DNA of 64,000 nt from a virus. A program made the position numbers and the translations under genes. Shown one piece after another: positions 4,281 through 62,013 of this stretch. The stretch covers positions 1-64,000 of IMG/VR virus record IMGVR_UViG_3300020473_000025. One strand, written 5' to 3'. The notes under the pieces are model-generated. The model worked only from the letters and a program-made list of their open reading frames with translations, was not told where the DNA came from and did not search any database. Positions within the stretch are counted from its first letter, which is position 1; every line of letters starts with the position of its first letter.

Positions 4281-4793
4281 ATGCAACCACAGCCCTTTAA
4301 AGCTACGTTTAACGAGTTCTTTAGAAGCGTCTATCCTGTCAACCTAGGAATAGACCCACAACAACGTGGGTTGATTAAAACCTTTTTCTACGTTGGTGGT
4401 CTACTATTTAAAAATAGCGCCATTAAAGGCGGTAGTGACGATATTTCCATGGAGCAGAATGTTAAGACCCTAGTAGATATTCAACACCATCTAAGACGTT
4501 ACGGGCGTCAATTGAACCGTACATCACACCCACCTATAAAGGGTAAGTTGGGTGAAACATTTAAAACGTTCATTGCAAAAGACATAACACCCGAATTGCC
4601 TAAAGGCAAGCCTATGTTAGATTGCTACAACGCCTACGTAGCAGGGATGTTATCCATGTTAGAAATTCTAACAGAAAGTTCAGACATCGATAATGAAGAC
4701 ATAGCCATTACCCGCTTTGATATCATCAACGATGACCTTATGGCTAACACAGGGATTGAAGCTTGGCACGTGCCTGAATGGCCCATGGACTAA
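4281..4793 (+). CDS. Unknown early protein (170 aa)
   Basis: A single-gene unit directly behind an early promoter and followed by another early promoter, so it is probably expressed in the first minutes of infection. An AAGGA ribosome site lies 10 bases upstream of the ATG. The 170-residue protein is helical with a basic middle (around residues 60-110) and an acidic C-terminus. No known domain is recognised. Confidence 0.72.
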   Translation: MQPQPFKATFNEFFRSVYPVNLGIDPQQRGLIKTFFYVGGLLFKNSAIKGGSDDISMEQNVKTLVDIQHHLRRYGRQLNRTSHPPIKGKLGETFKTFIAKDITPELPKGKPMLDCYNAYVAGMLSMLEILTESSDIDNEDIAITRFDIINDDLMANTGIEAWHVPEWPMD

Positions 4794-34956: not shown

Positions 34957-36825
34957 ATGGCTGTAAATAAAGATAACAAGTCTACTCCGTCTAACCCTGC
35001 TATGGCAGAAGCAATGAAAGAGTCAGGCGCGCAGCAAAGCCGTTCAACAAACCAAACCCAACCCAGTCGAGGAAGAAACGTGGAAGGTCCAAAATCCCTA
35101 GCCGGTCTTAATTCTTTATTCAGCAACCCAATGACGCGTAGCACTGCAGGCGAAGTCACTGGTGAGCTAACTCAAACGCTTCGTAAGATCCTATCTTCAG
35201 AGCGCAACAGCGTACTTGAGAAAGTAACGATTGAACCTGTGGACGGCGATAGCCATTCACTAGCCCTTTCTGTAATTGTATTACAGTTCCCATTCAACGA
35301 GCACGTTGCCTGCTATACCTACATTGTAGAAGGTTCTGGTGACGGTCTTGCAGATCGCGTTCCAACTATTGCCGGACAGCAAGTAAACATCAAGACTGTT
35401 CCTGGTGACGTATACGACGATAACATGTGGGAACAAGTTAACATGTATCTTCGCAGCAAGTACGGTAGTGAACGCAGCTTCATCGATGTTGGTGCTAACG
35501 TAATTCCACGTACAGTTACCGCTGACCATGAGAAAGAAATCCGCAGCCTGTTATACTTCGGTATCACTGCGTGTTACACTACTCTACTTAAAATCAATGG
35601 CGATGCCAGCAACAGCATTAGCGTAGCTGATATCAACACCGGCGACGTACTAGCAGCGCAACTTCGCTACAATCCAGGCGACACACAAACGGCTGCTGGT
35701 CAAACTGTACGCTCAGATCTATCTATCGCACTACGCGGTATTATGCAGACAGGTGAAGCGGTATCTGCTAAGCAGACCATTCCACTAACCACTGTTGATG
35801 GTTACATGGATCTAACTTACGTTCCACGTCAGCAACAACAAATGGCGTATGGTCAGCCTGTTGATCACCGTCAATACGTACCGCGTCTAGTAATGACTAA
35901 CGTATCTTCTGGTCTAAGCGTTAACACGCTAGAGCTTGAACTACTAGGTCTTTCTACTACGGTACTAGCAGCCCAGCACCACGCATGGGTTAAGTGCTTC
36001 AAGCCTGTATACGGTGCAAGCAAGAATGACATCCATGACATCGGTGCACTAGGCTTTGAAGTTGATTTCGCAAACAATGGCGAGTACGGTCGTATCTCTA
36101 CTAAGAGCGATTCATTCTCAGACCAAAGTCTGTTTGAGCTAGTACAACGCAGCATGTACAACGAAGTACTGTTCTCTTGGGATATCCCTGAGACAGGTGA
36201 CCTAAGCTGGTTACAAGAAACGTTCCTAGCCGCAGCGGCTGGTAACAGCAAAGCAATTAACACTCTGTTCAATGCAGCAGATACGTTAACTGGTGGTGCG
36301 TTTACTCGTAACTACGACGGTGCTCCTCCTCTAATGAGTGAGATTACTCGTGTACATCTTGGTACTTACCTAGATGAAAACAATACTCTACGTGATCTAC
36401 GTGATCTTGATTACCTAGCGATGCTAAACATCTACGGTGATAAAGACCTAGGTCTAGTTGAAGCATTTGGTAACACATACGACCAGACTGATCGTCCTCA
36501 AGAACTACGTCTGGCAGAGCGTGCTAAAATCATCGAAGCTACACTAGGTGATACAGTAACCATCACTGGTTACGCACGTCGTGTTACATTCAATCCTAAG
36601 TTCATTGAAGCGCTTGCTATGGCTTGTGCAGAAGCTGGACTTAAGATCCGCCCTGAGGGTATCTACGGTAACGACATGGGTGCCATTCGTGGTAACACGT
36701 CAGCTGTTGGTATGGGTATTGGTCAAAACGCCGGTGGTGCTGTCTTCCAACAAGGTGGTGCTAACTGGGGCGGTTCTGGTATGGGTTACGGTGCTCGTAA
36801 CTCTGGTGGACTGTGGAACCGCTAA
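34957..36825 (+). CDS. chmA: Probable chimallin, major shell protein of the phage nucleus (phiKZ gp54 / 201phi2-1 gp105-like)
   Basis: In this family ChmA assembles into the protein shell that encloses replicating DNA and excludes host nucleases. The evidence here is mainly size (622 residues, near the roughly 600-630 of known ChmA), an early promoter, highly biased codon use indicating strong expression, and synteny: the RNAP beta' N-terminal gene lies just downstream, as phiKZ gp54 precedes gp55. A Ser/Gln-rich disordered N-terminal arm (about 1-50) precedes AGLNSLFSNPMTRSTAGE. A large alpha/beta core follows, and from about 585 a Gly-rich tail ends in SGGLWNR. Flexible N- and C-terminal segments link neighbouring subunits in known ChmA lattices. 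The Gly-rich tail is distinctive. An alternative is another abundant early protein, but the context argues against it. Confidence 0.78.
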   Translation: MAVNKDNKSTPSNPAMAEAMKESGAQQSRSTNQTQPSRGRNVEGPKSLAGLNSLFSNPMTRSTAGEVTGELTQTLRKILSSERNSVLEKVTIEPVDGDSHSLALSVIVLQFPFNEHVACYTYIVEGSGDGLADRVPTIAGQQVNIKTVPGDVYDDNMWEQVNMYLRSKYGSERSFIDVGANVIPRTVTADHEKEIRSLLYFGITACYTTLLKINGDASNSISVADINTGDVLAAQLRYNPGDTQTAAGQTVRSDLSIALRGIMQTGEAVSAKQTIPLTTVDGYMDLTYVPRQQQQMAYGQPVDHRQYVPRLVMTNVSSGLSVNTLELELLGLSTTVLAAQHHAWVKCFKPVYGASKNDIHDIGALGFEVDFANNGEYGRISTKSDSFSDQSLFELVQRSMYNEVLFSWDIPETGDLSWLQETFLAAAAGNSKAINTLFNAADTLTGGAFTRNYDGAPPLMSEITRVHLGTYLDENNTLRDLRDLDYLAMLNIYGDKDLGLVEAFGNTYDQTDRPQELRLAERAKIIEATLGDTVTITGYARRVTFNPKFIEALAMACAEAGLKIRPEGIYGNDMGAIRGNTSAVGMGIGQNAGGAVFQQGGANWGGSGMGYGARNSGGLWNR

Positions 36826-36910: not shown

Positions 36911-37429
36911 GTGGCAAAGCCTATAGTTGAATCAATCTTAACAATAACAACACCTCGCCCATCAGATATCAAAACACTTGAAGAACAGCAAGGTATTATT
37001 CTCAAACCCATTAACGGTTTTAAAGATGCATGGGTTAGTCGATGTGGTAAAATCATCAAACTACACTACCCGCTAATGGGTGATGCGTGTTATTACTACG
37101 CCACCCTCACGGTGCGCCGTCAAGATCAACGTTTGATGGTAACACTCAAAAGCAGCGCTGGCTCTACCATGCGAACGCTATCTGGTTTAGTCGCTCGTGC
37201 CTATCTAGAAGCGCCTATAGACCCCTCGCGTTTTGATTTAATCAACATTGACGAGGACAGAAGTAATTGTCATGCCGATAACCTAGCATGGCGGCTTAAA
37301 TCTCACACTACCAACTACTATTACGAGGTGAAAGATACGCGTGATGGTTCAGTTATGGAGTTTGATACTAAGAAAGATTTTCATGATTGGGTAAGTAAAA
37401 CGTTTACGTTTAACAGAAAGAAAAGGTAG
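36911..37429 (+). CDS. HNH-like protein with an altered metal-site His (172 aa)
   Basis: It starts at GTG with an AAGGA site. Residues around 112-128 (NIDEDRSNCHADNLAW) align with the HNH segment of homing endonucleases, such as NHEDGDKHNNHADNLEW in the intron protein at 38972. The first His of the motif is replaced by Asn here, while the later His, Asn, Leu and Trp remain. The N-terminal part resembles a NUMOD4-like beta region (DAWVSRCGKIIKL). It is a free-standing gene between chmA and RNAP beta'. It may be a decayed homing endonuclease, or a DNA-binding protein kept without cleavage activity. Confidence 0.7.
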   Translation: MAKPIVESILTITTPRPSDIKTLEEQQGIILKPINGFKDAWVSRCGKIIKLHYPLMGDACYYYATLTVRRQDQRLMVTLKSSAGSTMRTLSGLVARAYLEAPIDPSRFDLINIDEDRSNCHADNLAWRLKSHTTNYYYEVKDTRDGSVMEFDTKKDFHDWVSKTFTFNRKKR

Positions 37430-37537: not shown

Positions 37538-38890
37538 ATGCAGGCTGATATCAGTGCGGTAGCTGACCCGACTAACGCACCCATCGATCAACTTAAAGGT
37601 CCTATTAGTTGGAACTATGACGATCGACAAGGTGGTGTTCATCTGGCGCTAGAAGATCATGATAAGATCTTTAATAACCTGTCCAACCCCCCTATCATCG
37701 TCAATGACGTCAACACGCTGTCTCAGGAAGACAAACAGAAATTCAATGATCTAATATCTACGCGATACGAGGGTGATTCATTATCTATCGTACCGTCGTG
37801 TGACTGTGGTGAATTATCAGGCGGTTATAACTTAGGTAAGGTTTGCGGTGTCTGTCAGACTGAAGTCCAGCAGTCTACAGAAAAGCGCATCGAGTCTACG
37901 TTATGGATGAAAGCACCGGATGGTGTTCATGGGTTTATTAACCCTAACGTCTGGTTGATGTTTGAGAAATACTTCTCAAGTAAGCAGTTGTGTCTTGTCG
38001 AGTGGTTGTGTAATCCTAACCTACGTTACGACAATGAGAAGAATGAGTCATTAAACCGCTTGAAGCGTTACAACTTTAAACGTGGCTATAATAACTTCAT
38101 TGAAAACTTTGACACAATAATGAATGCACTGTATGACATATTCGCTATACACAAGCGATTAGAGATACAAGACTTTAAAACCACGATGCGTAAGTATAGA
38201 CATTGTCTATTTAGTCAATACGTGCCGGTGCCTTCTAAAGTCGCATTCGTAACAGAGAAAAACGATTCAACCGTTACCTCTGATACGCAGACATCGTTAG
38301 CGATGGATGCTATACGTACCATGTCGTCTATCAAACAGGCACTACGTCCTCTTATGCCTAAACAGCTAGAGAACCGTACCCTTAAGTGTGTTAAACAGCT
38401 TGCTGTCTATTATGAAGAAACTTACAAGACACGTCTTGCCTCTAAAGATGGTTTCATTCGTAAACACATGATATCAGGTAGATTGCATTATACGGCACGT
38501 GCTGTTATTGTATCGTTGAGTGAACCCCACGAGTACGATGAGCTACATCTTCCATGGGGGTTATCGGTAGGATTACTACGTACGCACCTGACTAATAAGT
38601 TGTTAAAGTTAGGGTATACGCCACGTGCTGCTGCTTGTCTATTGCAAGAGTCTATTAGCCGCTATCATCCACTTGTAGATACGCTGTTAAATGAACTTAT
38701 AGACGAGTCCCCGTGTCTATCGGAAATAGCAGAACACGAACTTACCATGCCTAAGAAGAAAGGTCTGTATGTAATCATCCAGCGTAACCCATCACTACAT
38801 AGACTGTCAGCACAGTTCATGCGGGTTACTAAGATCATTAAAGACCCTAGCATCCAGACTATATCAATGTCAGTATTATCATTGACTGGT
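37538..38890 (+). CDS. Non-virion RNA polymerase beta' N-terminal subunit, exon 1 (phiKZ gp55-like)
   Basis: The first 451 residues of the beta' N-terminal subunit of the phage-made RNAP that transcribes later genes. A zinc ribbon with Cys88, Cys90, Cys103 and Cys106 matches the beta' N-terminal site. IQRNPSLHRLSAQF (near 418-431) matches the cellular LNRAPTLHRLGIQAF. In cellular beta' the catalytic NADFDGD follows about 25 residues later. Here it is missing: the frame runs into a stop at 38911 shortly after SVLSLTG, because a group I intron begins. Splicing to 40614 restores the active site and gives a 520-residue protein. Unspliced message would give a 457-residue, catalytically dead fragment. 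A GGAGAG site precedes the ATG. Confidence 0.88.
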
Positions 38891-40613
38891 CCCAACAGAT
38901 TAGTTGCTTAAATAAAATGTAAAGAAAAAAGTACCTTAGCTATAGTATGAGATATAGTTGAGGAACTAAAAATGAGTAAAGAAAATTGGAAACCTGTCAA
39001 GGGTTTCAGAAATGTAGAATGTTCGTACGACGGTAAGGTTAGGACGTTTAAATTTGATCGATATGCTGGTAGCAAGATCTATCACTATCCGTCAATTAGA
39101 GAAACTCCAACATCTAAAGGTACTTATCTGACGGTGTCGGTGGTACCAGAAGATAAAGAACACTTTGTCACTGCGCTCGTCCATGTCCTCGTGGCTGAAG
39201 CCCACGTTGATAAACCAGATACTGATGAGTTATTAGAAGTTAACCATGAAGATGGGGATAAACATAATAACCACGCAGATAATCTGGAATGGATGACACG
39301 CTCCGATAACCTTAAACACGCTTATAGGACAGGTCTTAGATCTGACTCTAGAGAAGTTAAGGTAGAAGATCTCGAAACAGGTGAGGTTCAAACCTTCTAC
39401 GCTATTGCTGAGTTTGCAAGAGCGTATGGATTAAGTGAGAACAAAGCATTAACCATCGCTAATGGATCAATGCGTCATCCGTGGAAAGGTCGTTATCGGA
39501 TAACGATATCAGGCGACTTTACCGTCAGAAAGCAAAAACATGTTAAAGATCTTGTAGCTAAGGACTATGTAACTGGTGAATTGATAATAGCCGATTCTAG
39601 ACTAAGTTTAGGGTTGATGTTAAAGATACATCCAGCTTCTATCACCTATCATCGCACCAGGCGACCTGATCAGCTTCTCGCTGGTTATGTAATGCGTGAA
39701 CTCGAAGAAGATATACAATGGCCTTCTTTTACTAAAGAAGAAGCCATAGCTTCTAGAGACGCGTATATGTGTCGGCCAAAAGCAAAGGATAAGCAGTTTG
39801 GCGTGGTGGTGAAAGACTACATAACTAATTCTGTTACAGAATATAAAGACATGGTGGAAGCAGAGAAAGCAACAGGCGTTAATCGTGGTACTATTAGTTT
39901 TGTATTGCGTCGTGGATCAGACATGCCCTTTAAAGGTATGGTGTTTCGATATTTAGGTGATGATAAACCATGGCCTGAGTTTCCCGATGATGTGGTAGAA
40001 GTTCTACCTCTTGTCAAGAAACCAGAATACCCATTGGCTTATATTCACGATAAAGAGACAGATGAAACAACCCTGTATGCTTCCATTGCTGACTTTGCGA
40101 GGCAGAACGGGTTTAATGCTGTCTCGGCGTCTAACGGCTTTAAGCAAAAGGGCGAGTTTAAAAACCGCTATAGCTATACTCCTCTACATTTAGAAACATT
40201 TATTTAAGTAACCACAGTTGCGCCTACCAGTAATGGTGGGTCGAGTGACTCTTTGAACTGCTGGTAAATCCTAAAGCTTCTCTTACTACAGCATAGCTTG
40301 AAAAGGCAAGTGCGAATGTTGATGAAAATCAGAAAGAAAAGAGAAGATGACCTATGGCGAAAGTCTAAGGGTTGCTAACAATGGAAGCTCAGCATCTAAG
40401 ACCCTCTATGTTTCAGTGGGTGAAGATCAACGACTATCCCGGTAGCGGGAGTAGGACACCAAGTGGGTCCGAAGTGGAGAGCACCCTACCAGGTTAAGCT
40501 GGGGGTGAAGATATAGTCTAGCCTGTCTGTGAATTGACACAGAATACATGCCAGTATGGATGAAAGTCCCAGCAGCATGTAATGATGCGGGTAGGTATTA
40601 ACGACACCTATTG
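38891..40613 (+). mobile_element. Group I self-splicing intron with HNH endonuclease gene
   Basis: This 1723-base insertion separates two parts of RNAP beta'. The core lies 3' of the endonuclease gene. P7 can be read as GACTAT (40432-40437) pairing with ATAGTC (40513-40518), the latter within the conserved GAAGATATAGTC segment of group I introns. A P8-like hairpin (GGACACC / GGGTCC) and a P9-like hairpin flank it. The last intron base is taken as G40613 and the last exon base as T38890 (T38887 is an in-frame alternative); both junctions follow the U/G rule and keep the frame. A possible guide sequence GGTCGA (40239-40244) could pair with exon TTGACT and would favour 38887. The exact 5' site is therefore uncertain by three bases. 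Confidence 0.83.
38972..40207 (+). CDS. Intron-encoded HNH homing endonuclease (411 aa)
   Basis: The N-terminus (WKPVKGFRNVECSYDGKV, about 6-23) is NUMOD4-like. An intact HNH motif, VNHEDGDKHNNHADNLEW (90-107), follows. The C-terminal part has several NUMOD1-like repeats that should bind DNA: EIAEFARAYGL-type segments near 142-152, a MVEAEKATGV segment near 293, and SIADFARQNGF near 377. Each is paired with a short G-K/F-RY/YR strand. The predicted role is cutting intron-less copies of the RNAP beta' gene to spread the intron. A GAGGAAC site precedes the ATG at 38972. It is transcribed within the early unit of its host gene. Confidence 0.88.
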   Translation: MSKENWKPVKGFRNVECSYDGKVRTFKFDRYAGSKIYHYPSIRETPTSKGTYLTVSVVPEDKEHFVTALVHVLVAEAHVDKPDTDELLEVNHEDGDKHNNHADNLEWMTRSDNLKHAYRTGLRSDSREVKVEDLETGEVQTFYAIAEFARAYGLSENKALTIANGSMRHPWKGRYRITISGDFTVRKQKHVKDLVAKDYVTGELIIADSRLSLGLMLKIHPASITYHRTRRPDQLLAGYVMRELEEDIQWPSFTKEEAIASRDAYMCRPKAKDKQFGVVVKDYITNSVTEYKDMVEAEKATGVNRGTISFVLRRGSDMPFKGMVFRYLGDDKPWPEFPDDVVEVLPLVKKPEYPLAYIHDKETDETTLYASIADFARQNGFNAVSASNGFKQKGEFKNRYSYTPLHLETFI

Positions 40614-40823
40614 AATAACGCGGCCGATTTTGACGGCGACGCTTTGAACATTCTCTTAATCACTGATAAAGAGATGATGCGTAAGATGTACCGACTGTCA
40701 CCCCATTATGGTATTTTATCGCTTCAAGAACCATCCAAGGTCTCTGGTTGCGTAGGTATGCCTAAACCGGTGGTAAGTACTATTGATAACTGGTTGAAGA
40801 AAGGTCCTAAAGTTCCAGCTTAA
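40614..40823 (+). CDS. Non-virion RNAP beta' N-terminal subunit, exon 2 with the catalytic DFDGD
   Basis: The last 69 residues (452-520 of the spliced protein) begin NNAADFDGDALN. DFDGD carries the three aspartates that hold the catalytic magnesium in all multi-subunit RNAPs. The TTG at 40611 that opens the frame is the intron's last codon-like triplet, not a start: it has no ribosome site, and a catalytic loop without the rest of the subunit would be useless. The remaining part includes a HYGILSLQEPSKVSGCVGMPK segment that ends the beta' N-terminal half; beta' continues as a separate subunit encoded at 57456. Confidence 0.88.
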   Translation, partial: NNAADFDGDALNILLITDKEMMRKMYRLSPHYGILSLQEPSKVSGCVGMPKPVVSTIDNWLKKGPKVPA

Positions 40824-40840
40824 CCAGAATAAAAGGATTG

Positions 40841-40863
40841 GCGTGCAGAACGGATCTGCATGC
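40841..40863 (+). terminator. Hairpin after RNAP beta' exon 2
   Basis: A 9-bp stem (GCGTGCAGA / TCTGCATGC, one G-T pair) with a 5-base loop is followed by TTTATT. There is no TATGCCGT tail. Confidence 0.5.
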
Positions 40864-40928
40864 TTTATTAAAACCTAATACGGTAATTGCTCTCATAGAG
40901 AGCTTCGTATTAAACAGGAGTCATTATA

Positions 40929-41363
40929 ATGGCACGTAAGAAAAGTATCTACACCGTAGATCAAAAGAGACAACTCACCACCACACGTATGTTGATACGT
41001 CTAGCCATGCAACGTAAAACTATTTACTATAGTGAGTTAGCTGAGCGTTTAGGGTACAATGTACCGAACATGGCGTTAGGTAAGGTGTTAAGTCCGACGC
41101 TTGAGCGGGTTAACCAGTGGTGTTGGGAGCGACAGCAGCCATGGCTTACCGCGTTGGTCGTTAGAAGCTCAGGGAACCATACAGGGCTTCCTGGTGAAGG
41201 TTTCTTTAATGAGATGCAAGAGCTAGGTGCGTATACCCCTGAAGTTGATACCCACAAGGTACGTCGTGCTTGGGCTGAGCCGTATATTAAAAGTATATGG
41301 GATTTCTGGGGTCCTGATGATAGTGATATTTTGTGTAAGGCACGTGTGCTATCACCAACATAA
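40929..41363 (+). CDS. Putative DNA-binding protein (144 aa)
   Basis: An ACAGGAG site precedes the ATG. The basic N-terminus (MARKKSIYTVDQKRQL) leads into a helix-turn-helix-like segment, TIYYSELAERLGYNVPN (about 37-53). A Trp-rich middle (QWCWERQQPWL) and an acidic end follow. The HTH reading suggests a regulator or a nucleic-acid-associated factor made with the RNAP subunit. The family is not recognised. Confidence 0.65.
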   Translation: MARKKSIYTVDQKRQLTTTRMLIRLAMQRKTIYYSELAERLGYNVPNMALGKVLSPTLERVNQWCWERQQPWLTALVVRSSGNHTGLPGEGFFNEMQELGAYTPEVDTHKVRRAWAEPYIKSIWDFWGPDDSDILCKARVLSPT

Positions 41364-55408: not shown

Positions 55409-57469
55409 ATGTCCAATATTAATACATCCGAATTACATCCGGAGTTAATGGGTCTAGGTAATAACTTAGATTCATTTGGTAAACATAACTCAGCCTCTCG
55501 TAGAAAGATGTTCTCATCTCACTTGAGTCAGGCGTTGGTTATTGAGGGTTCGACCCCTAAGCGCATTCAAACAGGTGCTGAGCGTGAGCTTGGTAAATAC
55601 ACCAAAGCTATAAAGATGCCGGTTGATGCATCTATCATTAAAGTCATTCGGCGCTATCCTCGTCGACCCGGTGCTGATTCTATCAAAGAGAATCCAGCCA
55701 CGGCTATTATCTACGAAGATGTCAATACGCAGGAAGTTGATATCTTGATGGTTGAGAATTATTGCTCCGACCATAATACGTTTGGGTTCCAATACTACCC
55801 TACAGCGGCAATGGAGAAAATCTACCCAGGAATGCAGGTTCCTAAGGGTACGGTGCTTGCTAAATCCAAGTCGCTTAAGGATGACGGTAACTATGCTTAT
55901 GGCTTAGAAGCAAACGTTGCCTATATGTCTTTACCAGCTACCATTGAGGATGGTTTTATTATCAGTGAGTCTATGGCGGAAAGACTTACTACTACCATGA
56001 CCGGTTCTCGTGTAGCTAGCTGGGGTAAAGAGTATTACCCGCTTAACTTGTACGGTGATGAAAACAATTACAAGCCATTCCCAGACATCGGTGATAAAAT
56101 ACGTGAAGATGGACTATTGTTCGCTCTGCGTAAATACGATCCAGCGCTTGGGATGGTAGAGATGACGCCTAGGGCGTTGATGACCCCAGACTACACGTAT
56201 GATAAACTAACGTATGTTTCACCTGCTGCAGGTGCGACGGTTTATGACGTCGTGGTTGATATGGATCACAACCTACCCTACAGCATTACACCTGTAGGGA
56301 TGAATGCGCAGCCCGATAAGTACATGCGTCTGCGTGATCAGTTTTACGAATATATTTACAATGAATACCGTCGTCTTGCCAAACATCGTGGTAAGGGTCT
56401 TCAATTGTCAGGTAGATTTACTAACTGGGTAACACAGGCGATTGCTAATAAGCCTAATGCCTCGCCCCACAAGGTTACACGCAAGTATCGTTACACCCCA
56501 CTTGACGATCGTCGCGTAGAAATTAAATATGCGAAGAAAGTAAAAGCCACTAAAGGGTTTAAGCTTACTGATAGTTCAGGAAGTAAGGGCGTTGTAGTAG
56601 AAGTATGGGAGGATAGCCGACTACCTGTAGGTCAAAATGGTCTACGTGCAGATGTTATCATGGATCCTATCTCGCCGGTTAAGCGTATTAACTTGTCTCA
56701 GCTATACGAGCAGTATGTTAATGCAACTAGCCACATGGTGACATGTGTGGTTAGAGATCTGATGAGTAAGGGTGAATACCAGAAAGCATGGGATTATTTG
56801 AAAGAGTACTACAGTGTAGTATCGCCGCCAATGATTCAAACCATCAACGAGGTGCTAAATAACGATAACCGTATAATTACACACTTACACACCATTGCTG
56901 CTACGGGTATTTATCTCTACCTTCCTGTGGATAGTATACACATTGGACCTAAATTAATCCAAGACCTCCGCACTAAGTTTCCAGTAGATATACAGCCGGT
57001 TACTTATTCACCTGATGGTGTTAACCAGGTCACTACAATAGATCCTGTATTAATAGGGTCTAAGTACATGATGTTATTAGAAGCGGCACCAGATAACTGG
57101 TCATCGGTCTCTACCGCTAAACTACAGCATCATGGCTTACCTGCTAAAGCATCTAAGAGCGACCGCTATGGTTCACCTAACCGTGAGCTACCTGTGCGTA
57201 TCATGGGTGAGGATGAAGTTAGACTACTTAATGCTGCCCTAGGATCTGACGTAACTGCCGAACTGTTAGATGCGTCTGCATCGCCGTTAACACAGAAAGC
57301 TATTATCCGTTCGATCCTTAACGCAGACCAACCGTCTAACATTAATCAAACTGTTAACCGTCGCAAACACCCACTGGGTAGAAGTCGACCATTGGAATAT
57401 GTAAACCACCTATTAAGCTGCGCAGGTGTTAAATTTGTAAGAGGGACGTACGATCATGAGAAAGTTTAA
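55409..57469 (+). CDS. Non-virion RNA polymerase beta C-terminal subunit (phiKZ gp71-73-like)
   Basis: The 686-residue protein carries beta hallmarks in order. ANVAYMSLPATIEDGFIISE (168-187) matches the cellular NVLVAFMPW...FEDSI, with Glu180-Asp181 at the metal-proximal pair. FKLTDSSGSKGVVVEV (384-399) matches GDKMAGRHGNKGVIS. NGLRADVIMDPISPVKRIN (410-428) matches ADVVVDPIS.VSRMN. It forms part of the active-site wall and the RNA-DNA hybrid channel. In phiKZ this gene is interrupted by an intron; here it is continuous. It overlaps the beta' C-terminal gene by 14 bases, so the two are co-translated. Confidence 0.92.
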   Translation: MSNINTSELHPELMGLGNNLDSFGKHNSASRRKMFSSHLSQALVIEGSTPKRIQTGAERELGKYTKAIKMPVDASIIKVIRRYPRRPGADSIKENPATAIIYEDVNTQEVDILMVENYCSDHNTFGFQYYPTAAMEKIYPGMQVPKGTVLAKSKSLKDDGNYAYGLEANVAYMSLPATIEDGFIISESMAERLTTTMTGSRVASWGKEYYPLNLYGDENNYKPFPDIGDKIREDGLLFALRKYDPALGMVEMTPRALMTPDYTYDKLTYVSPAAGATVYDVVVDMDHNLPYSITPVGMNAQPDKYMRLRDQFYEYIYNEYRRLAKHRGKGLQLSGRFTNWVTQAIANKPNASPHKVTRKYRYTPLDDRRVEIKYAKKVKATKGFKLTDSSGSKGVVVEVWEDSRLPVGQNGLRADVIMDPISPVKRINLSQLYEQYVNATSHMVTCVVRDLMSKGEYQKAWDYLKEYYSVVSPPMIQTINEVLNNDNRIITHLHTIAATGIYLYLPVDSIHIGPKLIQDLRTKFPVDIQPVTYSPDGVNQVTTIDPVLIGSKYMMLLEAAPDNWSSVSTAKLQHHGLPAKASKSDRYGSPNRELPVRIMGEDEVRLLNAALGSDVTAELLDASASPLTQKAIIRSILNADQPSNINQTVNRRKHPLGRSRPLEYVNHLLSCAGVKFVRGTYDHEKV

Positions 57470-59432
57470 TGTAAGAGAATTACAAAAGCTTAACTCTGAA
57501 GAAATGTGGGCAATGGATGATGAGATATTTACTATTATCTTTGATGATGGTGAATTAGTTACCTCTACTCGTCCTACTATTCTAAGTCACTACTACTGGG
57601 AAATGCAGCGTCATTTCCCAAATGCAACTATACTCAAGCGCCATCATATCGGCAACGGTCATTACACCCCTAAGCTTCATGAGGAGATCTTAAGTAATGT
57701 GTTGTTTGATACGTATTATGCGTTAAACGAAGTAGTTGACATCATGCTACTCAGTCGCATTGCTTATGAGATTACTAATAAACTTTACAACGACGCGACC
57801 AGTCAACTAGCTGGGTTTGTATCAACGGTAAGTATTTTAGATTACATTGAGATACATAACCATCCAATAACCGCAAAAGTTAGGGATGAGTTTAAACCCA
57901 ACGAACGGGCCATTGAACGTGGCTATGAACAGATTAAAGATCTACTGTATAAGAAAGAAGAAGAACTACCTAACAACAACGTTGCTGGGTTCTGTCATTC
58001 TAACGTCTTAAGCGTAGGTCAGATTGTTCAGTCGGTCGCAGCCCGTGGATTTGTAACAGATATCGATAGCCATATCCCGCCTAACCCAATCCCAACTAGC
58101 TACACAGAAGGGATGAATACGCTCCATGATTCGATGATTGAATCACGTTCAGGTTCCAAAGCATCGTTAGCACAGAAAGATCCACTGCAGACTACGCAGT
58201 ATTATAACCGCCGCATGCAGTTGGGTTGTGCGATAATACAAAATCTCCATAAAGGGGATTGTGGAACAACACGTACCGTGAAGTTCCGTGTATTGCCACA
58301 AAGTGTCAAGGTGTTAGTAGGTAAATATTACTACGACAATGACAACGAGCTAAAGGTGTTCACGGGCGATGAAGATCATTTGATCGGTGAGACAATTAAA
58401 CTGCGTTCACCGCTTGCGTGTGAGCATCCAGACCCTTACGGCGTATGTAGTAAGTGTATGGGTACGGTGGCCGCATCGGTTCCACCAGGTGCTAATCTAG
58501 GTCACGTGGCGGCTGTAGAGCTATGTGCGGTTATCTCGCAAAGCGTACTCTCTATTAAACACTTAGAGGTAAGCTCCGTTGCGATTGAGATTAGTCTAGA
58601 TGATCACCATCGTCGCTATCTGCGTCTCAATGCTAAAGGCGATAAGGTATTCATTAGAGATCAAGACCGATACGATCGTATGGAGTTGGTGCTTAATCAC
58701 AACGATGTTAAACATATTGGTGATATTAACACAATTGAAGATATTACTGATCTATCATCAAGCCGTATTTCATCGTGTCGTGATATTGTACTTAATGGGT
58801 ATCGTGGGGATGAGTTTGAAGATGTGTTATTGTCTGTGTCGTCAGGTAAGAACTATTCTTCACTATCGGGTGCAATGTTAAACTACTTGAAAGAACATGG
58901 CTGGTCTCTGAACGAGAAAGGGTTCTATGTTTGTGACCTTAGTCATTGGGACTTCAATGAACCTGCGTTTATTCTTCCAATGAAACACATGAACATGTTG
59001 GAGTATATGGATGTCATTAAGACATTTATTGAATCATCAAGTTCGCAGGAAGATAAAAGCGCAAGCATGTCTAGCCGTACAACGAAGAAGCCTAGAGATG
59101 ATAAGCGTAGCCGTATCGTTAATTGCGATTCATTGTCTCAAGCTTTGATGGACTTACATGTGTTGGTGTCTGAAAAGTTGGGTGTTAACGTGGTGCATCT
59201 GGAAATTATCATCCTGTCAATTTTAGCACGCGACCCTGATCGTATGGATCACCGTCTGCCGCGTCCTCAAGATCAAAAGGTCTTTGGAACGTATAAGCAG
59301 AATATGGAACTTAGATCGTTAACAGGCCAGGCTGCATGGATGAACCAGGCACAGATGATGATATCACCAACGTCGTTTGCTCTGACTAATCGACCTAAGC
59401 ATCCAATGGATACGGTGTTCATGGGTAAATAA
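57456..59432 (+). CDS. Non-virion RNA polymerase beta' C-terminal subunit (phiKZ gp74-like)
   Basis: The 658-residue protein contains the bridge-helix/trigger-loop region: TEGMNTLHDSMIESRSG (217-233), followed by KASLAQKDPLQTTQYYNRR (235-253), matches cellular REGLxVLQYF...KGLADTALKTA...GYLTRRL. A second zinc site with Cys269 (DCGT), Cys322, Cys331 and Cys334 (CSKC) matches the beta' C-terminal zinc motif. AVISQSVLSIKH (358-369) matches GEPGTQLTMRTFH. Together with 37538-40823 it makes up beta'. A ribosome site (GAGGG) lies inside the beta gene. Confidence 0.93.
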   Translation: MRKFNVRELQKLNSEEMWAMDDEIFTIIFDDGELVTSTRPTILSHYYWEMQRHFPNATILKRHHIGNGHYTPKLHEEILSNVLFDTYYALNEVVDIMLLSRIAYEITNKLYNDATSQLAGFVSTVSILDYIEIHNHPITAKVRDEFKPNERAIERGYEQIKDLLYKKEEELPNNNVAGFCHSNVLSVGQIVQSVAARGFVTDIDSHIPPNPIPTSYTEGMNTLHDSMIESRSGSKASLAQKDPLQTTQYYNRRMQLGCAIIQNLHKGDCGTTRTVKFRVLPQSVKVLVGKYYYDNDNELKVFTGDEDHLIGETIKLRSPLACEHPDPYGVCSKCMGTVAASVPPGANLGHVAAVELCAVISQSVLSIKHLEVSSVAIEISLDDHHRRYLRLNAKGDKVFIRDQDRYDRMELVLNHNDVKHIGDINTIEDITDLSSSRISSCRDIVLNGYRGDEFEDVLLSVSSGKNYSSLSGAMLNYLKEHGWSLNEKGFYVCDLSHWDFNEPAFILPMKHMNMLEYMDVIKTFIESSSSQEDKSASMSSRTTKKPRDDKRSRIVNCDSLSQALMDLHVLVSEKLGVNVVHLEIIILSILARDPDRMDHRLPRPQDQKVFGTYKQNMELRSLTGQAAWMNQAQMMISPTSFALTNRPKHPMDTVFMGK

Positions 59433-59451: not shown

Positions 59452-62013
59452 GTGCCAACTCAGTATTACGCACATGTGGATGTAAAAAGTCACCATGTAC
59501 GGTTCCACACCATGATGCCAGAGTGTAAACGCGCCCTCTATGATTATTGCGAGCGGTTAATCGATTATGACCAAGGGTACGATCCTCGTACCCATAGTTA
59601 CTATAAGATACCTAAGCGTGTCTTTGCCGCATCACCGCATGATCGTAGAGAGCTGCGTTTCCATATTAACCAGTATAAAGATATACTTACACACCTTAAC
59701 GTAAAGGGAATCAAAACCGAACAATTATTAATCGAGCACTTTACTCCGGTAGAGGGTGATGATGTTACTAGTTTTGTAATAGACGACGACATTCAACCCT
59801 ACGAGTACCAATTGCCAGTTATTGACCATTTCCTTACACCCGGTGTGAGTAAGATAACCAATGCGCCAACGGGTAGTGGTAAGATGCAACCATTAGACAG
59901 TCTAATTAAGATACCTGGTGGTTGGAAACAAATGGGAGATATACAGGTAGGAGATAAGATCACAGCACCTGACGGTCACGACACTTTTGTAAATGGCGTA
60001 TTCCCTCAAGGGAAAATGCAGATTTATAAAGTTACGTTTGCAGATGGTCGATCAACTGAGGTTGGAGGTGAACATCTTTGGAAAATGTTTATTGCTAACT
60101 ACCATGATGCTGATAAGCGGTGGCGTATCGGTGATACCTTTGAGATGATGCGTGAACTTAAACGCTCACAGCCTAGAGTATATATACCGTTAATCCAGCC
60201 TGAGCAGGGTGAATACAAAGAACTGCCCATTCATCCATGGACACTCGGTGCTATGTTGGGTGACGGTTGTTTTACTACCACGCCCCCCACATTCACTACT
60301 ACCTATGTAGATATTTTCCATAAGCTATCAACATTGTTACCAGAACACGTCACATTAAGTTGTGGTGCAAACGGGCGAACTATTGGTTTTGGAAACAGCC
60401 ATGTGTTTAGAGATTACTTCAAACACTTAGGACTATGGGGCTGTCGTTCCGCTGATAAATTCATCCCTAAGATGTATTTAGAAGCTTCCGTAGAGCAGCG
60501 CTATGCGTTACTCCAGGGTTTAATGGATACCGATGGAGGTATTGATGTTAATTCATCCATGGACTACTCAAGTGTGTCTGAACAACTGGCCAAGGACGTT
60601 CAATACTTAGTCAGAAGTCTAGGGGGGATTGCAAAACTATCTAAGCGTCAAACCCACTATACCTATAAAGGAGAAAGGAAACCTGGCCAACCTAGCTTTA
60701 GAGTTAACATTCGCCATCCTAAACCATCTTCATTGTTTACTGTCCCTCATAAACTCGAAAGAGCCAATGACAACAGTCAGTATGCTAAGGGATTGAAGTT
60801 AAGAGTGGTGAATGTAGAGCCATCCCGAATGGCAGATGCGCAGTGTATATCGGTTACACACAAGGATCATCTTTACGTAACTGATGATTTTGTGGTTACT
60901 CATAATACCATGATGTCTTTATATTCTACATGGATGATAAAGAAAAGAACCATCCTGGTTGTGCCTGCTAAGTACATCACCGAAGGTAAATGGATTGGTG
61001 ATATCACTAAGACATTAAATGTACCTAGGGAAAAACTGTGTGTGGTGAAAGGATCTAAAGCCATGCGGGCGCTTATCGATTTAGGATTAGCAGATGCCTT
61101 GGAATATGATTTTATCATTATATCAGCGACTACCATGTATAACTTCTACAAGGCGTATGAGGAAGGAAAGCTGGAGGAAGAAGGGTATAACTGCGACCCC
61201 GATGAATTGTACACGGTTACTAAAACAGGGCTACGCGTAATAGATGAAGTGCATGAGAACTTCCATCTCAACTTTACGCAGGATCTGTACGGTCATGTGG
61301 CTAAGACGATTTACATGTCAGCGACGTTAGTTTCTGATAATGCTTTCATTAATTCAATGTTAGAAGTTGCCTATCCTGTTGGCGAACGTATAACACCGGA
61401 TTATGATGGCAAATATATCGCCTGTACAGCCCTCACATACCGTTGTAACAAGGTAGAGCTACTATCGCATAAGCGACGTAAGATGTACTCTCAGATGCTC
61501 TTTGAGGCGTCTATATTGAAGAAGAAGTTTCGTAGTGAAGCTTACGCTGAAATGATCTATGATATCGTGCTTAATGAATACATCAGTATCCGTGAGCCGG
61601 GGCAGAAGATGATGATCTTTGCCGATACCATAGAGATGTGTACCTATCTAACATCGTTTATAAAGCCACGTTTGACTGACTTAACTGTCAATAGGTTTGT
61701 GGGTGAGGATCCAGATGAGTATCTTTATGAATCTGATGTAATCATTACTACACCTAAGTCTGCAGGTACTGCGGTAGATATCAAAGGACTTAAAGTTACC
61801 TTACTGACATCTGCAATTGGCTCACGTCAATTAAACGCGCAGATACTGGGTCGTTTGAGAAAGCTAAGAGGTTTTGAAGATAACGTACCACGTTTCTTCT
61901 ACTTAGTTTGCGAGGATATAGATTCTCATGTTAAGTACCATGAAAGAAAACTTGCTACTTTCTCAGATAAAGTTAAAACTCACCGTACGCTGCAAACTGC
62001 GTATGTGCTATAA
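59452..62013 (+). CDS. SF2 DNA/RNA helicase precursor containing an intein (phiKZ gp75-like)
   Basis: It starts at GTG with a very strong AAAGGAGGG site. The host protein is a superfamily 2 helicase. Walker A APTGSGK (138-144) is interrupted after Lys144 and resumes with Thr486 (TMMSLYS). Motif II is DEVH (598-601), motif III is SAT (623-625), and a late QILGRLRKLRG resembles the arginine-finger motif VI. Removing residues 145-485 gives a 512-residue enzyme. It is last in the RNAP block and probably acts in replication, recombination or transcription inside the phage nucleus. It cannot bind ATP until the intein is spliced out. Confidence 0.88.
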   Translation: MPTQYYAHVDVKSHHVRFHTMMPECKRALYDYCERLIDYDQGYDPRTHSYYKIPKRVFAASPHDRRELRFHINQYKDILTHLNVKGIKTEQLLIEHFTPVEGDDVTSFVIDDDIQPYEYQLPVIDHFLTPGVSKITNAPTGSGKMQPLDSLIKIPGGWKQMGDIQVGDKITAPDGHDTFVNGVFPQGKMQIYKVTFADGRSTEVGGEHLWKMFIANYHDADKRWRIGDTFEMMRELKRSQPRVYIPLIQPEQGEYKELPIHPWTLGAMLGDGCFTTTPPTFTTTYVDIFHKLSTLLPEHVTLSCGANGRTIGFGNSHVFRDYFKHLGLWGCRSADKFIPKMYLEASVEQRYALLQGLMDTDGGIDVNSSMDYSSVSEQLAKDVQYLVRSLGGIAKLSKRQTHYTYKGERKPGQPSFRVNIRHPKPSSLFTVPHKLERANDNSQYAKGLKLRVVNVEPSRMADAQCISVTHKDHLYVTDDFVVTHNTMMSLYSTWMIKKRTILVVPAKYITEGKWIGDITKTLNVPREKLCVVKGSKAMRALIDLGLADALEYDFIIISATTMYNFYKAYEEGKLEEEGYNCDPDELYTVTKTGLRVIDEVHENFHLNFTQDLYGHVAKTIYMSATLVSDNAFINSMLEVAYPVGERITPDYDGKYIACTALTYRCNKVELLSHKRRKMYSQMLFEASILKKKFRSEAYAEMIYDIVLNEYISIREPGQKMMIFADTIEMCTYLTSFIKPRLTDLTVNRFVGEDPDEYLYESDVIITTPKSAGTAVDIKGLKVTLLTSAIGSRQLNAQILGRLRKLRGFEDNVPRFFYLVCEDIDSHVKYHERKLATFSDKVKTHRTLQTAYVL
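59884..60906 (+). mobile_element. Class 3 intein with LAGLIDADG homing endonuclease, in the helicase Walker A motif
   Basis: The intein covers residues 145-485 (341 aa), Met1 to Asn341. Its first residue is Met (MQPLDSLI), not Cys or Ser. Trp210 follows the block B His208 (GEHLW), Cys465 is in block F (QCISV), and the +1 extein residue is Thr486. This Trp-Cys-Thr set defines class 3 inteins, which start splicing from the block F Cys. The C-terminus VVTHN has the penultimate His and terminal Asn. The endonuclease part shows LGAMLGDGC (265-273) and LLQGLMDTDG (353-362), the paired LAGLIDADG motifs with their acidic residues, so it is probably still mobile. Confidence 0.9.

Follow-up and report, generated by a model that had tools for sequence, protein, structure and literature searches.

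What interrupts the Walker A motif of a phage helicase gene in this genome fragment, and is it an element that splices and moves? The window analyzed here, a stretch of 64,000 nucleotides, is part of an 80,292-base IMG/VR virus record and encodes a phiKZ-type nuclear shell protein (34957-36825; phrog_4795, E 1.9e-102), a tail sheath, a terminase and a multisubunit RNA polymerase (RNAP), whose PHROG families were also matched. The gene content of the 80-kb fragment assigns its source to the nucleus-forming jumbo phages (Chimalliviridae). Our analysis points, with high confidence, to a mobile class 3 intein that bears a homing endonuclease (HEN) and lies in the P-loop of a helicase beside the RNAP genes of this phiKZ-like phage; its splicing and homing we infer.

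An insert within the helicase Walker A motif

The interrupted gene is a single open reading frame (59452..62013, + strand, GTG start, 853 aa), which encodes an SF2 helicase together with the insert. A match to PHROG DNA helicase family 16 (phrog_16) identifies the host protein as a phiKZ-like SF2 helicase, and RNAP subunit genes lie beside its gene. Its N-extein, residues 1-144 (59452..59883, +), ends with the GSGK of Walker A (59872-59883, +). The insert that follows, residues 145-485 (341 aa; 59884..60906, +), comprises 341 in-frame codons with zero stops, and the C-extein (60907..62013, +) holds the rest of the SF2 helicase, including the IDEVH motif II and a phrog_16 match over residues 548-834. 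With a slash marking each junction, the protein reads ...NAPTGSGK / MQPLDSLI...VVTHN / TMMSLY, such that the insertion point falls between the Lys and Thr of Walker A (GSGK/T). The predicted spliced helicase has 512 aa.

A scan of viral contigs identified seven close relatives, six of which carry the insert. The remaining relative, L012, lacks exactly these 341 codons: its helicase of 510 residues reads TNAQTGSGKTACSLF uninterrupted (TGSGKT; 4380-4500), with the N-extein running on into the C-extein, and gives Pfam ResIII and DEAD matches. Outside the insert, L012 and the window share ~75-77% DNA identity. By sequence comparison L012 is a natural empty allele, and it therefore fixes the intein boundaries without relying on the reading of motifs. 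The exact gap bears out the insertion between Lys and Thr that had been proposed from the sequence alone, and the accompanying claim of a spliced product of about 512 residues is supported as a prediction from sequence.

The empty allele also refutes the view that residues 145-485 are an ordinary insertion domain of the helicase. We give this view virtually no probability, given the uninterrupted gene in relatives, the Hint and LAGLIDADG fold predicted for the insert, and the kindred inserts that occupy non-homologous genes. When the insert alone was used as a tblastn query, matches were found in 751 phage records. Because of these records, the class 3/PI-SceI-like fold and the lack of precisely this segment in L012, the insert at 59884-60906 is judged real, far beyond chance.

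Splicing residues and nuclease fold

Class 3 inteins are defined by a Trp at B:12, a Cys at F:4 and a Thr at G:5, before the penultimate His (PMC3196547, PMC7664689). The N-terminal splicing (Hint) part of the insert, intein residues 1-71 with blocks A and B (59884..60096, +), matches class 3 and gp41-1 inteins in HMM searches. It contains the block B:10 catalytic His208 (intein H64; 60073..60075, +) and Trp210 (intein W66, block B:12; 60079..60081, +), the W of the WCT set. The C-terminal splicing part, placed by alignment and fold at intein residues 305-341 with blocks F and G (60796..60906, +), contains Cys465 (intein C321, block F:4; 60844..60846, +), the predicted initiating nucleophile, and ends in Thr483-His484-Asn485 (THN; 60898..60906, +), comprising the G:5 Thr of WCT, the penultimate His and the C-terminal Asn. 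Position 1 of the intein is Met145, and offers no Cys/Ser/Thr nucleophile. His64, Trp66, Cys321, Thr339, His340 and Asn341 are invariant in both of our alignments of related inteins, A1 and A2 (one n=19, the other n=40). The THN Thr served as an extraction criterion for a set of 77 viral loci considered below, such that its frequency there is not independent; its invariance in A1 is. For comparison, the catalytic triad of MchDnaB1 is Cys124-His65-Thr143 (PMC7664689).

By sequence, the class 3 set is thus complete in Trp210, Cys465 and Thr483. Met145, the full WCT set and the Hint fold uphold the class proposed by the sequence-only reading, which also placed Trp210 and Cys465 correctly. It erred in taking the T of WCT to be the +1 residue Thr486; the class-defining Thr is the G:5 residue Thr483 (intein T339, within THN) (PMC3196547, PMC7664689). 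From the junction sequence and L012, Thr486 (60907..60909, +) is the splicing acceptor nucleophile of the C-extein and the Walker A Thr of the helicase, and a mutation of T486 would therefore bear on the C-extein nucleophile and not on class. The assignment of T to the +1 position, which had wrongly made the RNAP intein of phage EL (THN/S) look aberrant, was dropped. Membership of class 1 or 2 was ruled out by the lack of Cys1/Ser1, the full WCT set, and the nearest solved stand-alone Hint domains, which are class 3. Intact catalytic residues are not in themselves proof of splicing: a class 3-like intein from Arthrobacter, Arth_1007, turned out to be inactive, though in that case His B:10 and Cys F:4 are both missing (PMC3196547).

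The AlphaFold2 model of the intein (pLDDT 92.9, pTM 0.92) superimposes on the class 3 DnaB intein of M. smegmatis (6bs8; Z 20.0, rmsd 1.5, 123 residues), on MchDnaB1 (Z about 19.5) and on whole-chain PI-SceI (Z 27.9 over 332 residues). The modeled architecture is a Hint domain built around a PI-SceI-like LAGLIDADG nuclease. The HEN domain spans approximately intein residues 110-302 (60211..60789, +), as judged from Pfam LAGLIDADG_3 (E 2.4e-9), a PI-SceI profile and the I-Tsp061I structure, which covers 110-302. Both LAGLIDADG motifs are intact, as had been read from the sequence. Motif 1, TLGAMLGDG (60241..60267, +), aligns with LGLWIGDG of PI-SceI and is nearly invariant in A2; its AMLGDG core holds the likely catalytic Asp127 (intein numbering). 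Motif 2, LLQGLMDTDG (60508..60537, +), aligns with LAGLIDSDG of PI-SceI and is invariant in A2, and its GLMDTDG core holds the likely catalytic Asp217. The class 3 intein is genuine and probably active; it is new in this phage lineage, its kind and type of site being known.

A splicing pathway can be drawn from studied class 3 inteins (PMC3196547, PMC6195587, PMC7664689). Cys465, activated by His208 with Thr483, would attack the Lys144-Met145 bond, after which the N-extein would pass from Cys465 to Thr486. Asn485 would then cyclise, and an acyl shift would join Lys144 to Thr486, giving GSGKT and the 512-residue helicase. The helicase can fairly be expected to be inactive until the intein is spliced; work cited in PMC6195587 is described there as finding that a P-loop intein disrupts the ATPase function of RadA. 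In homing, the LAGLIDADG domain would cleave the intact GSGKT codons of a co-infecting phage that lacks the intein, for which L012 4380-4500 offers a substrate in silico, and the intein would be copied into this allele as the break is repaired.

Distribution, recombination and mobility

With the uninterrupted helicase as query, 285 phage records were matched, many of them, including phiKZ, as a single uninterrupted piece. The same GK/T site is occupied by an intein in the orthologous genes of LucasX, Rebecca, Proteus phage 10, SA002, EC001, Kwan, D6, AerS_266, BUCT660, ZK_P1, FishSpeaker and EL. Erwinia phage Rebecca carries the intein, whereas in RAY and Simmy50, Erwinia phages related to it, the matches are uninterrupted, the sporadic sequence pattern of a mobile element. 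KpLz-2_45, once considered as an empty site, was rejected as such, since a mini-intein of 197 aa occupies its helicase GK/T site; in this mini-intein and in the EL helicase intein (248 aa) the HEN has been lost wholly or largely. No extra intein copies were found in the 80-kb record or in a 190-kb relative. In Serratia phage 2050HW (L024 1854-4416) the annotation splits the intein-bearing helicase into two ORFs with the break inside the intein, which could reflect a frameshift, a sequencing error or a split intein; in the related BUCT660 the helicase with its intein is one ORF.

Relative to the close relatives L006 and L010, dN/dS is ~0.04 for the whole intein and 0.03-0.04 for the HEN region, which indicates purifying selection and so supports a functional intein. 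Two haplotypes, L006 (= L007) and L008 (= L009), were each recovered from two metagenomes and are ~99% identical over 6.8 kb, and 37 of their 77 differences fall within 60190-60537, a 348-bp tract (Fisher p 7e-24) that corresponds to the first half of the HEN. Most of the differences in this tract are silent. Between the window and L006 (59151-62350), the near flanks are 98.3% identical, the farther flanks ~91% and the intein 90.2%. Simple co-conversion of the flanks was therefore rejected, and one simple homing event does not fit. Because of the clustered HEN differences and the greater divergence of the intein relative to its near flanks, the sequences indicate a separate recombination history for the intein. 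The trees of its two parts also conflict: the splicing part falls with those of Rebecca, EC001 and Kwan (95/92) and the HEN part with those of FishSpeaker, ZK_P1 and EL (91/88), a hint that modules have been exchanged. The likely driver of this recombination history is homing through cuts in the uninterrupted allele.

These data bear on what the nuclease now does. An intein that splices while its HEN no longer cuts, fixed and inherited vertically with the helicase, would agree with the wide spread of orthologous inteins at this site in jumbo phages, and with the HEN losses in KpLz and EL. We nonetheless consider it improbable, as the window intein keeps both catalytic Asp residues, its HEN evolves at a dN/dS of ~0.03, the close relative L012 is without the intein, and HEN alleles recombine. 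It is more improbable still that the intein serves as a conditional switch, in which a redox- or metal-sensitive Cys465 would delay helicase activation during infection, a role proposed for the class 3 DnaB inteins of mycobacteria. Class and P-loop position are shared with M. smegmatis DnaBi1, the splicing of which is blocked by H2O2 (PMC6195587), but the helicase of phiKZ and most of the other orthologues have no intein to act as such a switch, and constitutive splicing has been suggested for HEN-bearing class 3 inteins (PMC7891396).

Homing might also carry a competitive effect. In PhiPA3, the HNH intron nuclease gp210 cuts the RNA polymerase gene of phiKZ and lowers the yield of this rival (PMC11620839). 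The nuclear shell protein at 34957-36825 places the window in the same phage group as PhiPA3 and phiKZ, and intein-plus and intein-minus alleles coexist among its close relatives. That the intein nuclease is likewise a weapon, cutting the helicase gene of an intein-less co-infecting rival and lowering its yield, is a conceivable though rather unlikely reading, and one that is compatible with the homing explanation rather than a replacement for it. Homing can be tested directly with the empty allele (77% DNA identity), several intein alleles and recombinant HEN haplotypes, and this in a nucleus-forming lineage where a homing nuclease acts as a weapon (PMC11620839).

The RNAP genes of the window appear to hold a second mobile element, as had been claimed from the sequence alone. 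An RNAP beta'-like ORF (37538-38911), to which phrog_2987 is matched only as far as 416/478, is followed by an HNH endonuclease ORF of 411 aa (38972-40207), downstream of which a frame encodes the beta' catalytic motif NAADFDGDALN. This layout (37538-40929) is consistent with an HNH-bearing intron, comparable to that of PhiPA3 gp210. The claim stands as regards the HNH ORF between the RNAP piece and the NAADFDGD stretch; as to the intron itself, no Rfam intron model matched in an Rfam scan. A further HNH endonuclease ORF, of 172 aa, lies directly after the nuclear shell gene (36911-37429).

Related inteins in unrelated genes and known systems

Viral contigs yielded 77 related inteins whose ends are clear: 57 of them sit exactly at GK/T and 10 at GK/S (67 together), and six more follow AK, SK or FK before T/S. 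Among the host proteins are SF2 and SNF2-type helicases, terminases, AAA ATPases, DnaB-like proteins and, in L117 and L136, family A DNA polymerases (Pfam DNA_pol_A, E 6e-18 and 5e-27). In these two loci the class 3 inteins (L117 2998-3999, L136 2998-4053) are at GK/T, downstream of the DNA_pol_A match, and probably sit in the motif B/O-helix region of the polymerase. In Pseudomonas phage EL, gp039 (L022 3001-4089) carries a class 3 intein in RNAP beta' at NAAGK/S, which is not a P-loop; the homologous site in the window, residues 232-236 (SGSK-A) of the ORF at 57456-59432, is uninterrupted.

Monophyly of the inteins in this helicase is rejected (AU p 5e-10). FishSpeaker, BUCT660 and ZK_P1 each carry a pair of inteins, in two non-homologous genes of the same genome, that are more closely related to one another than to any other intein (supports 100/99, 99/97 and 96/96; 56-64% identity within pairs), which lends good support to jumps between genes. 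Such jumps are not the whole story: terminase (TerL) inteins form a separate clade of their own, and the within-genome pairs of G006, G020 and G025 do not cluster in the tree. Within-genome clustering as a general rule is only partly true, holding for the three jumbo-phage pairs and one tandem pair. The P-loop Lys/Thr junction is already known as a classic intein site (PMC5050341, PMC6195587). We tentatively suggest, at somewhat less than an even chance, that the family targets Gly-Lys/Thr or Ser coding sequence rather than one gene or fold, and so jumps between non-homologous genes within a genome. If so, one nuclease could enter several essential genes in nucleus-forming phages, and the crowding of class 3 inteins at P-loops would be explained by retargeting between genes, not only by allelic homing. 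Within a partial coverage of the literature, we found no paper on these between-gene jumps or on GK/T sites outside P-loops.

The known systems closest to the window intein include the inteins of LucasX, Rebecca, Proteus phage 10, SA002, BUCT660 and FishSpeaker, which occupy the same GK/T site of the orthologous helicase by the RNAP genes, possess the WCT set and a HEN, and are 43-48% identical to it. These jumbo-phage inteins are known from sequence only, and the LucasX helicase gene is already annotated as intein-containing. Mycobacteriophage inteins (Catera Gp206, Bethlehem; TerL1-a) are similarly phage-borne, of classes 1 and 3, and many have a LAGLIDADG HEN, although they reside in other host genes. 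Dietrick gp203, which we take to be a relative of Catera Gp206, is 33% identical to the window intein. TerL1-a occupies the 'classic' P-loop Lys/Thr site (PMC5050341). The structurally solved MsmDnaBi1 (6bs8) and MchDnaB1 (6rix) share with the window intein the Hint fold (Z 19.5-20), the WCT set and the lack of a position-1 nucleophile, and MsmDnaBi1 likewise sits in a P-loop. In contrast to the window intein, these mycobacterial mini-inteins lack a HEN and interrupt the replicative helicase DnaB, and identity is 24-28% over aligned residues. PI-SceI, the yeast VMA1 intein, resembles the window intein in whole-chain architecture and HEN, but belongs to class 1, begins with Cys1, has a longer chain (454 residues) and is only 15% identical.
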